Source: Draconibacterium sediminis | Lineage (GTDB): Bacteria > Bacteroidota > Bacteroidia > Bacteroidales > Prolixibacteraceae | DNA: 64,000 nucleotides | NCBI RefSeq assembly: GCF_000949475.1 | Contig: NZ_JRHC01000001.1 | Location: forward strand, 2,418,001-2,482,000 | Direction: 5' to 3' | In this document: positions 29,180 to 31,565 of the stretch, piece by piece | Layout: each line of letters starts with the position of its first letter | How positions within the stretch are numbered: the stretch's first letter is position 1 | Translations under genes and position numbers: made by a program | Notes under the pieces: generated by a model | Database searches by the model: none | What the model was told of the DNA's origin: nothing | Seen by the model: only the letters and a program-made list of their open reading frames with translations

Positions 29180-29250
29180 AATATGTAAATTTTAATTTAT
29201 TAAACTTTGTTGTTCCAATTCGTTGTTTTGTTTCTTTCAACACTTCAAAG

Positions 29251-29300
29251 ATACTATTAGTAGTATTTATTATATTTATAGCAGTATTAGTAATACTTAT
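29251..29300. promoter_or_regulatory. Candidate OxyR operator between dps and oxyR
   Basis: Two imperfect palindromes lie about three helical turns apart: ATACTA-N4-TAGTAT (29251-29266) and AGTATT-N3-AATACT (29283-29297). They are also a direct repeat, with 15 of 19 bases matching at a 30-bp period. A tetrameric LysR regulator binding an extended site would fit. No footprint data are available here. Confidence 0.5.
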
Positions 29301-29303
29301 GCT

Positions 29304-30245
29304 ATGAATATCGCACAACTGGAATATCTGAAAGAATTGTATGCATGTGGTTCGTTTTCTTTGGCCGCCGACCGGCTGGGAGTTACACAGCCCGCATTAA
29401 GTCTGCAAATACAGAAACTGGAAGAGGAACTGGAGTTCAAATTGATCGACCGAACCAAACGGCCATTTCAATTTACAGATGAAGGAAAGGTGTTTTACGA
29501 GAAGTCGCTGGAGATTTTAAAGCAGATCGAGGCGTTGAAACAAATCTCAATTAATATCAGTGAAGAAGTAAGTGGTAACCTGAAAGTCGGGATAATTCCA
29601 ACACTGGCTCCGTACCTGATTCCGCTTTTTATTCATCAATTGGGCAAAGACTTTCCGGCGTTGCAGTTGGAGATTTATGAGCTAAAAACGGAAGAGATCG
29701 TTGACGAAATTAAAATGGGTGATATCGATTGTGGTATAATTTCTACCCCAATTTCGGCAACAAATATTTCCATAACTCCACTTTTTTACGAACGTTTTTA
29801 TGCGTATTTGTCCGAAGATCATCGTTTGTTTGAGCAGGATTTCATCGATCTTAAATCGATTGAAGAAGGCGAAATATGGTATCTTGAAGAGGGGAACTGT
29901 TTTCAGAACCAGGTGAATTCCATTTGTCAGATCAATCCGCAAAAGAAAAACAAACAATCATTGGTTTATCACAGTAATTCTATCGAATCGTTACGGCGTA
30001 TTGTGGAGAACAAAAGCGGCCTGACTTTTATTCCCGAGTTGGCCACTATAAATATTCCGGCCGAGCAGGAAGAGCTGATAAAAGAAATTGTGCCAAATGA
30101 ACCCGTTCGCGAAATCAGTTTAATAACTGCCAAACGTTTTGCCAAAGAGCGACAGGTTAATGCTTTGCAGAAGGTTATCAAAAGTAACATTCCGGCGCGT
30201 ATGCTTCAACAACCTGAAGGGGGAATTATGGATACACTCATATGA
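29304..30245 (+). CDS. oxyR: OxyR-type LysR-family peroxide-responsive regulator
   Basis: The 313-residue regulator opens with a LysR winged helix (MNIAQLEYLKELYACGSF, then AADRLGVTQPALSLQI). I chose the ATG at 29304; a frame extending upstream to 29223 would put coding sequence over the operator and adds 27 unrelated residues. In the sensor domain, EEGNCFQNQ and NSICQINP place cysteines at residues 199 and 208, the same numbers and spacing as the redox pair of Escherichia coli OxyR. This strongly supports disulfide-based peroxide sensing. It is divergent from dps, its probable target. Confidence 0.93.
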   Translation: MNIAQLEYLKELYACGSFSLAADRLGVTQPALSLQIQKLEEELEFKLIDRTKRPFQFTDEGKVFYEKSLEILKQIEALKQISINISEEVSGNLKVGIIPTLAPYLIPLFIHQLGKDFPALQLEIYELKTEEIVDEIKMGDIDCGIISTPISATNISITPLFYERFYAYLSEDHRLFEQDFIDLKSIEEGEIWYLEEGNCFQNQVNSICQINPQKKNKQSLVYHSNSIESLRRIVENKSGLTFIPELATINIPAEQEELIKEIVPNEPVREISLITAKRFAKERQVNALQKVIKSNIPARMLQQPEGGIMDTLI

Positions 30246-30294
30246 TTCTTCGTGAAAATTTTGATTTCCACCTTCTCGCAGCATTGAAACACTA

Positions 30295-30582
30295 AAGCCA
30301 CAAAAATTTCTTGCTTGTTGCAGCAGTGCGGGAAGGTCGCCACACTATTTTTTTACTTGCCGCAGCCGTGCGACATGGTCGCCAACAAATTTTTTTGCCT
30401 GCCGCAGCCGTGCAACAAGCAAGCCACAAGTTTTTTTGCTTGCCGCAGCCGTGCAACTGGCAAGCCAATAAGTTTTTTGCCTGCCGCAGCCGTGCGACAA
30501 GCGAGCCAACAAGTTTTTTTGCTCGCCGCAGTTGTGCGACAAGCGAGCCAACAACTTTGCTGGCTAATTGCACGGCTGCAGG
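30295..30582. repeat. Structured tandem array, 41-42 bp unit, with terminal inverted copy
   Basis: This non-coding array fills the gap between convergent oxyR and focA. Full units start at 30317, 30359, 30401, 30442, 30483 and 30525 (period 42, 42, 41, 41, 42), with a partial unit before the first. Each has a GC-rich core (GCCGCAGCCGTGC), an arm such as GCAAGC or GCGAGC, a T6-T7 run and a matching arm GCTTGC or GCTCGC. After the last partial unit, 30568-30582 carries the core in inverted orientation (GCACGGCTGCAGG). The array is much richer in GC than its surroundings. Open frames of 93-104 codons on both strands are by-products of the near-3n period. No function is known to me. Confidence 0.92.
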
Positions 30583-30715
30583 AAGTCTGTAATCAGCGAG
30601 TTACAAAGGGTGGAAATTTGAGTGACTAGTAAAACCGTATTGTTCAGCAACTAATTCTGTAGATTCTGAAAATTAAAATACGTATTATAACGAGTGAATT
30701 ATGCATTGGCTTTTG

Positions 30716-31501
30716 CTATTTCTCTTTAGCGTAAGCATACCAGTATAAGGTACCTACAAAAAAGCCGCCTCCGACAATATTTCCAAGTGTTGCCGGAATC
30801 AGATTTTTTATCACAAATGTTGCCCAGCTAATATCAGCACCCTCGAAAATTGCCAGAGGAATAAAAAACATGTTGGCAATACTGTGCTCAAAACCCATAG
30901 TTACAAATGCCATAACGGGCCACCAGATGCCTAAAATCTTTCCGCTGGTGTGTTGTGCCGACATACCCATCCACAGCGCCAGACAAACCAGCCAGTTGGC
31001 ACCGATACCTTTTAAAAAGGTGGTGAAAAAAGGATTGGATGTTTTCCCGATAGCAATCTTTTCTACCATATTTATCCAGGGCTCGGCATTTACCAAATGG
31101 GTAAGGTGAACCAAAAAATAAGCTACGAACACAGCCCCAACAAAATTACCGAGATAAACCAACGACCAGTTGCGAAGCGGAGCTGTCCAGCGTTGTTTGC
31201 CTCCCAATACATTAGGCATAAAGTAGGCGTTGTTACCGGTAAAAAGTTCCGCTCCGGCCATTACAACAATCATCAGCCCAACGGGGAACATGGCTCCCAA
31301 AAGAAACTTCGGGATTCCCGGGTTTTCAGCACCAATACCGGGTACTCCACCGCCAACCAAAATGGCCAGCAAACCTCCAAAAGCGATATAGGCGCCGGCT
31401 AAAAATGCCAGTGTCAGTATTTTTTTTGCAGAGTAGCTGTCTTTTGCAATGGCCAGTTTCCCGGCTTCGTTAATAATTTCTTTTGGTGAATATAAACTCA
31501 T
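30716..31501 (-). CDS. focA: Formate/nitrite transporter family channel (formate channel)
   Basis: The 261-residue FNT-family channel has six membrane helices. Family marks are AGAELFTGNNAYF and the central GFEHSIANM with His about 206, which corresponds to the pore histidine of FocA. It moves formate across the inner membrane. It is last in a pflB-pflA-focA operon, the reverse order of the enterobacterial focA-pfl layout. A 49-bp heptamer array and an A-rich leader (on the mRNA) lie directly before its start. A nitrite channel (NirC) is the alternative, but the pfl neighbours argue for formate. Confidence 0.93.
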   Translation of the reverse strand: MSLYSPKEIINEAGKLAIAKDSYSAKKILTLAFLAGAYIAFGGLLAILVGGGVPGIGAENPGIPKFLLGAMFPVGLMIVVMAGAELFTGNNAYFMPNVLGGKQRWTAPLRNWSLVYLGNFVGAVFVAYFLVHLTHLVNAEPWINMVEKIAIGKTSNPFFTTFLKGIGANWLVCLALWMGMSAQHTSGKILGIWWPVMAFVTMGFEHSIANMFFIPLAIFEGADISWATFVIKNLIPATLGNIVGGGFFVGTLYWYAYAKEK

Positions 31502-31516
31502 TGTTTTTTCTTTTTT

Positions 31517-31565
31517 GATACTTGATGCTAGATACTTGATTCTAGATACTCGATACTCGAAGCTT
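31517..31565. repeat. Heptanucleotide tandem array, 7 x GATNCTN
   Basis: Seven contiguous 7-bp units run GATACTT, GATGCTA, GATACTT, GATTCTA, GATACTC, GATACTC, GAAGCTT. The array fills the space between the pflA stop (31567) and the pyrimidine stretch before the focA start. A second array of the same family is at 41557-41619. Confidence 0.92.

Follow-up and report, generated by a model that had tools for sequence, protein, structure and literature searches.

An array of imperfect dyads repeated every 41-42 bp occupies the gap between an oxyR-like and a focA-like gene in the window, the 64,000-nucleotide stretch of the Draconibacterium sediminis genome analysed here. Arrays of this period are strongly associated with genes for proteins of the DUF6261 family. 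They keep a rigid spacing and a dyad, carry private sequences that track the similarity of the proteins, and, for two array types, recur as orphans. We give about even chances to the reading that the window holds an orphan copy of a platform, phased on the helix, to which a DUF6261-family protein would bind.

As read from the sequence, the array spans approximately 30277-30610. A core scan finds six forward exact GCA-N4-TGC cores (30320, 30362, 30404, 30445, 30486, and 30528) at steps of 42, 42, 41, 41, and 42 bp, and a seventh at 30570, 42 bp past the last forward core, in an inverted unit. TRF reports rows spanning 30297-30558 with periods of 41, 42, and 83. The near-identical tandem units described in the earlier note are confirmed by the TRF rows and the exact cores, as are the step of about four helical turns (42 or 41 bp throughout) and the terminal inverted copy. 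The array extends a little past 30582, since the inverted unit is followed by a conserved tail to ~30610. Open reading frames cross it, yet the 41-bp steps disrupt the frame, and it is therefore read as non-coding. The features are as follows.

29223..30245, + strand: left neighbour, outside the element; listed ORF with an uncertain start codon, which we take to be an oxyR-like LysR-type regulator
30277..30299, + strand: left edge, with CGCAGCATT at 30277-30285 followed by a spacer (from the sequence)
30300..30558, + strand: six forward 41-42-bp units, each an imperfect 24-bp dyad with a T-run (TRF, core scan, unit profile)
30559..30582, - strand: inverted unit at the end of the array, with core GCACGGCTGC at 30570-30579 (27 arrays of the genus aligned)
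30583..30610, + strand: tail of the terminal module, AAGTCTGTAATCAGCGAGTTACAAAGGG in the window (alignment of 27 terminal modules)
30716..31501, - strand: right neighbour, outside the element; listed ORF, presumably a focA-like formate/nitrite transporter

The 27 terminal modules aligned across the genus (L035 being left out) display a mean column identity of 88% across 98 columns. The left-edge motif CGCAGCATT recurs in relatives, in the leader between the array and the DUF6261 gene (L022, L024, L025, L029). A 7/14/21-bp tandem repeat (TTGATAC) is also reported by TRF at 31515-31557, between the focA-like gene and the next one.

Arrays beside DUF6261 genes

DUF6261 (PF19775) was reached through the flanks of the arrays. 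The left-hand gene of the largest site class belongs to this family (E 6.9e-38), and the protein tested matches DUF6261 alone in Pfam, which lists the family as of unknown function. The reference gene with a window-type array is located at G000:C1:2192786-2193535, G000 being the genome of the window itself (6.0 Mb). In the genus scan, all full-length DUF6261 proteins at least 80% identical to the G000 copy (7/7) adjoin a window-type array. These seven loci represent six chromosomal contexts, left-hand ORF clusters being common only to the close relatives G036 and G002. G028 possesses two copies (69-75% identity) on short contigs with no array detected, and G012 harbors broken pieces of the subfamily (75-84% identical) whose closest listed array is some 150 kb away.

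Upstream of more distant DUF6261 genes, arrays recur with the same 41-42-bp period and unrelated sequence. These loci were scored by a lag statistic (best lag between 15 and 130, over 1500 bp, with a 210-bp window). In the class scan, the best lag is 41-43 upstream of 21/25 loci and downstream of 2/25, one of the latter (L261) lying on a short contig in which the upstream and downstream stretches overlap. Among loci first met in the phylum scan, the counts are 11/13 upstream and 0/13 downstream, excluding L291, which falls below the Pfam cut-off and has no array. The genus set, 30 loci out of a longer match list with two loci common to the class set, yields 22/30 upstream (21 with an identity of at least 0.43) and 2/30 downstream. 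Outside the genus, 23/29 upstream stretches compare with 2/29 downstream ones, and all nine DUF6261 genes of the window's own genome have an upstream best lag of 41 or 42 (identity 0.43-0.70). The identity cut-off of 0.43 was set after the class and phylum results were known and alters the genus count alone (21/30); at 0.45, L274 and L287 are lost, giving 20/25 for the class, 10/13 for the phylum, and 8/9 for the own genome. In an order-1 Markov null, a best lag of 41-43 arises in 11/300 sequences, and in 0/300 with an identity of at least 0.43.

The lag test misses L265, L269, L273 (best lag 83), L279, L285 (a 21/42 tie), and L286 in the class and phylum scans. Its misses in the genus are L196 and L214 (short contigs), L217 (internal stop), L201 (85, then 43), L204 (126, then 42), L210, L211, and L212. 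A best lag of 41-43 also occurs in 36/406 windows of 1500 bp, almost all of them taken from stretches selected around arrays; the high-identity cases are the known arrays, one array in L175, and one by the L256 DUF6261 gene. PF19775 occurs in 7/395 genomes of the class sample and 12/395 of the phylum sample, one of these 12 being below the family cut-off. It is also found in a Parabacteroides plasmid, with upstream palindromes near the 41-42 spacing (best lag 42, at a weak identity of 0.42), and in two fecal records filed as phage, with upstream best lags of 83 and 42 in one and 23 in the other.

In 33/36 loci, the start codon follows the end of the best-scoring stretch by 8-327 bp. The unit consensus of 36 arrays shows a dyad with 7.33 of 10 pairs versus 6.15 in shuffles (Stouffer z 10), and a second dyad half a period off with 5.42 versus 4.71 (Stouffer z 6); taken one by one, the arrays frequently have a dyad that does not surpass shuffles. 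We propose the class "DUF6261-associated phased array" for a 41-42-bp dyad period upstream of a PF19775 gene, or for a sequence copy of such an array. The window array is a sequence copy of the type found beside the G000 DUF6261 gene and its relatives.

The sequences of the arrays follow those of the proteins. Among 41 loci, compared at array identities of at least 0.45 only, similar arrays are found in 21/21 pairs of proteins at least 75% identical, in 6/33 pairs at 45-75%, 0/65 at 35-45%, 3/64 at 25-35%, and 1/637 below 25%. Judged by sequence, arrays are alike mainly where the DUF6261 proteins are alike, and each type of array is private. A second DUF6261 type (G034, L197; 60% identical) possesses its own array, whose TGCCGAA..TTCGGCA dyads recur every 42 bp. 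This L197-type array has orphan copies at two other places in G034 (L161, L162) and one in G013 (L139), so that orphans are not peculiar to the window type. A 41-bp phased array of CTCCAC-N4-GTGGAG dyads is also present at L175:16900-17160 (G000:C1, ~2208.4 kb), with no DUF6261 gene found beside it; stretches resembling it occur in L181 (G009) and L176 (G007).

Unit, dyad and spacing

The unit profile comprises 42 columns and is drawn from 185 units (169 distinct) of 50 arrays in 17 genomes, L144, L161, and L162 being left out of the alignment and L117, L125, and L151 having no unit hits. The consensus is GCTTGCYGCA-NNNN-TGCRRCAAGC followed by a T-run, with a nearly invariant GCA...TGC core. 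Only one register makes it a dyad, at 65% complementarity versus at most 35% in 12 others, and rows reach up to ten phased sites. Core-to-core distances in the 50 arrays (L117, L125, L144, L151, L161, and L162 left out) are 42 bp in 192 cases and 41 bp in 32, with none of 40, 43, or 44 bp, two of 39 bp, and one of 45 bp. Distances of 23 and 19 bp, 29 cases each and adding up to 42, mostly arise where something resembling a core falls between the last forward core and the inverted one. The scan tolerates one mismatch and takes in flanks, and the other distances (17-144 bp) are due to chance or to missed cores. Of the 2988 positions compared between neighbouring units in columns 8-36, 892 (30%) differ, and 89/104 adjacent pairs have no gap in these columns. 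At 10.5 bp per turn, 41-42 bp corresponds to about four helical turns, and phasing on the DNA helix would be expected to produce a fixed spacing of this size.

The pairing of the arms behaves differently from the spacing. The earlier note had taken apparently compensatory changes in the stems as a sign of selected pairing. The examples that it quoted are present in the sequence, but pairing, whether between adjacent units or within units, does not rise above shuffles, and the set of 169 distinct units lends no support to selection for it. Within units, the arms form 6.53 of 10 pairs versus 6.82 +- 0.07 in shuffles (157 units with complete arms); no unit has ten pairs, where 2.8 are expected, and four have nine, where 14.4 are expected. 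Columns 13-26 are even anti-complementary, pairing in 25% of units versus 42% expected. Over 13 within-unit registers, mean pairing never exceeds shuffles meaningfully (largest excess 0.008). The cross-unit pairs proposed in that note, evaluated in 98 distinct adjacent pairs, resemble shuffled columns, the top excess being at 35-8' (0.89 versus 0.87, z 2.6). Compensatory pairing was thus rejected in the cross-unit register and the 13 within-unit ones, and the absence of a compensatory excess can be stated safely. For an avoidance of perfect palindromes the data give no more than a hint, since these statistics take units as unrelated and leave their relatedness uncorrected. The conserved features are the dyad core and the rigid spacing, not the pairing of the arms. 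The array is a real element and apparently constrained, but not through the pairing originally invoked for it.

A putative platform for protein assembly

The AlphaFold2 model of DUF6261 is all helical (pLDDT 88.9, pTM 0.53), and a fold search of this model against the PDB returns no match at E <= 0.001. The protein has no recognised DNA-binding domain. In five proteins, NCBIfam gives no hits and PADLOC two weak ones (E 0.0015 and 0.021). An all-helical prediction without a fold match means that DUF6261 may bind DNA directly in a novel way, or via a partner.

The proposed platform would be a tandem row of imperfect dyads at 41-42 bp, four helical turns, a spacing that would place all dyads on one face of the helix. 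Most DUF6261 genes tested would carry such a platform upstream, private in sequence and identical in period, and gene-less copies would lie elsewhere in the chromosome, one of them in the oxyR-focA gap. The DUF6261 protein or its partner would bind the dyads cooperatively, giving rise to a multivalent filament or cluster, and the orphans would be remote binding sites, or might have spread as non-autonomous copies. The combination of phased dyads, one protein family, and private sequences fits a multivalent protein-DNA assembly, and suggests, in place of an RNA structure, a system of protein on DNA that has not been described before. A more elaborate picture, which we regard as possible but short of probable, is that of a helical, rod-like DUF6261 assembling on private four-turn dyad arrays; a genome would hold many such paralogues, every one matched to a private array sequence and some of them to orphans that seed assembly at distant loci. 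Such assemblies might bookmark or insulate chromosomal sites, or delimit regions that are variable and rich in defence genes.

Good arrays in genomes devoid of a full-length cognate gene count against the assembly model. Cores are intact in 67/81 cases without a full-length DUF6261 of the subfamily and in 82/104 of the comparison group, and array quality with and without the cognate gene does not differ. This equality implies that the protein is unneeded for upkeep over this time scale, or that a paralogue serves.

No published description of such arrays was found in the full-text literature searched, a collection mostly without subscription papers, and DUF6261 is named in it only in work on Streptococcus oralis. 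A fixed DNA period across unrelated sequences, together with one protein family, is a strong and easily tested hint of nucleoprotein assembly. If true, this reading would point to a function for DUF6261 and explain 42-bp intergenic arrays that otherwise resemble minisatellites.

Dispersal and alternative readings

Further copies of the window array occur beyond chance in its own genome and genus. The search for copies elsewhere in the genome, suggested in the earlier note, finds them dispersed at other gene ends, in five places besides the window. In the genus (Draconibacterium/Maribellus), a sequence model built on 98 columns of the terminal-module alignment (E <= 0.01) detects the family in 18/37 genomes, G006 being marginal. 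In a class sample of 295 genomes, the own genome is the sole strong match, followed by two others at E 0.005 and 0.009. Six loci emerge from a pattern scan of named genomes, two in Draconibacterium orientale, one in D. mangrovi, two in uncultured Draconibacterium, and one in Maribellus luteus. The terminal module (inverted unit and tail) is common, not universal: it is found in 36/56 fetched loci, counted with a 28-of-41 match and enough preceding sequence required, and several arrays end differently (e.g., L120, L147, L158-L160). Sites common to several species include DUF6261, rplQ-like, SLC13-like, fusA-like, oxyR-focA, and others, the gene names being in part presumed from the sequences.

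Such dispersal might also be that of a REP/BIME-like or MITE-like mobile element, in which the DUF6261 gene and its array would be autonomous and the orphans non-autonomous, spreading via DUF6261 itself or an IS200/RAYT-type transposase. This is possible, though unlikely. The sites are patchy, the array being present in 5/14 genomes at the rplQ-like site (760 bp downstream inspected) and in 2/11 at the focA site (690 bp inspected; a protein search with the focA-like neighbour matches 11/37 genomes of the genus). DUF6261 and its array occupy six contexts in seven genomes, and two arrays at different sites of one genome are 94% alike. Furthermore, the left edge TGTTACGCAGCATTTT of several arrays resembles by eye, imperfectly, the inverted right edge TGTAACTCRCTGATTA, and a clear Y1 transposase gene (L174:3334-3834) lies near one array. 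However, 30277-30612 is free of GTAG, CTAC, GTGG, CGTC, and GACG, with only CCAC, the complement of GTGG, present (30298, 30340, 30424). Pfam and NCBIfam place DUF6261 in no transposase family, and each array-bearing genome holds only 1-6 arrays. The focA (11 genomes) and rplQ-like (14) sites offered no closely related empty counterpart in which a target-site duplication could be demonstrated, their flanks being too diverged for a junction. RAYT-like proteins, presumed such from sequence motifs, are encoded near three arrays (L169:3177-3803, reversed coordinates; L171:5781-6413; L177:2809-3438), and the one scanned matches Pfam Y1_Tnp weakly (E 0.063). RAYT was rejected as mobiliser: the two genes read with their flanks adjoin GCGCGATTCAATCGCG- or GCGCGGTTTAACCGCG-type palindromes, a different repeat and possibly a separate REP family.

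REP/RAYT systems (REPtrons) combine a protein-coding gene with palindromic repeats on its flanks, repeats whose sequence tracks that of the gene and of which more copies lie elsewhere in the genome (PMC3733652, PMC2817692). The DUF6261 gene resembles them in having an array that tracks the protein sequence, further genomic copies, and imperfect palindromes. In contrast, the window array carries no GTAG/CGTC tag, DUF6261 has no Y1 transposase domain (PF01797), and its arrays are long, one-sided, head-to-tail, at a fixed 41-42 bp, and few per genome. Measured against a REP criterion of a 20-40-bp imperfect palindrome, usually in >100 copies per genome, the unit is a 24-bp imperfect dyad, and the own genome holds six arrays with a few dozen units, a count from which weak single copies could have escaped. 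REP/RAYT seems the closest system in logic, with a misfit in tag and transposase and a low copy number. BIMEs are alike in clustering palindromes with an inverted unit; here, however, units are mostly head-to-tail at a fixed spacing, with the inverted unit at the end rather than alternating. Plasmid centromeres and iteron arrays line up repeated binding sites along one side of the helix, next to the gene for the protein that binds them. By analogy, the DUF6261 arrays are phased repeated dyads, candidate binding sites, beside the gene of a candidate binding protein; unlike plasmid centromeres and iterons, they occupy many chromosomal loci with far orphans, and the protein tested shows DUF6261 as its only Pfam match. 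The window array is filed under none of the known families.

The arrays could also be simple autoregulatory operators of DUF6261 genes, with the orphans forming a small regulon. Their upstream position, in the best-scoring stretches given above, and the likeness of the dyads to dimer operators speak for this, but up to ten phased sites exceed the needs of an operator and the orientations of neighbouring ORFs are mixed, which leaves it distinctly improbable. Of 49 arrays, 16 lie between convergent, 14 between divergent, and 19 between co-directional ORFs. Arrays at convergent gene ends, as sought in the earlier note, exist in those 16 cases, while retained pairing, expected with them, is not above shuffles. 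The ORFs by which shared sites, the six contexts, and the neighbouring cargo were compared are longest-ORF picks rather than gene predictions, and some left "genes" (e.g., at the L131/L145/L148/L150/L164 sites) are probably not real.

A neutral minisatellite grown by slippage, which the earlier note had raised against its own reading, is very improbable. As in minisatellites and VNTRs, species differ in unit number at a given site, the window array having six units and its G009 counterpart three, a difference that unit loss by recombination would account for. Unlike them, the arrays keep their spacing and dyad as the sequence diverges, the spacing being rigid despite the 30% divergence, and they are tied to one protein family, the same period recurring beside DUF6261 genes whose arrays have no common sequence.

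A structured RNA or a bidirectional terminator with selected stems is barely credible: the unit is foldable and the quoted pair changes exist, but the 169-unit set has no excess pairing, no terminator-like site is found in 30000-30800 (0 versus 1.3 in shuffles), a GC stem directly followed by a U-run does not occur in the window array, only 16/49 arrays lie between convergent genes, Rfam gives no match in the window at gathering thresholds, RNAalifold predicts nine pairs in the 27 terminal modules with none changed on both sides, and an RNA offers no obvious reason for a 41-42-nt period across unrelated sequences.

Beside the assembly on phased dyads favoured here, the neighbourhoods of the arrays display features of their own. 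Some arrays border variable, defence-rich stretches. Genes for Type ISP and MmeI-like restriction enzymes, XhoI, SIR2-like, Schlafen/AlbA, and HsdR-N proteins lie to the right of the arrays L170, L171, L175, L184, and L185. The idea that arrays cause the adjacency of defence genes is suggestive at DUF6261 and DUF3945 sites, yet other repeats sit there too, and the link is therefore kept as a mere observation. In the close relatives G036 and G002, the genes that separate the array from a common downstream gene are different (L172:2700-6300, L173:2700-8000), and some of this cargo lies between inverted sequences resembling GTTACCTGC...GCAGGTAAC, as in a cassette. Other dispersed intergenic repeats, GGGCTAAAGCCC and CCCCGGCATTAATGCCGGGG, cluster with arrays in L186, L220, L235, L166, and others, as does a long GCCGGGCTTTCCGCTAAAGTTGCC...GGCAAGCTACCGCTGCAATCCCTGCC element.
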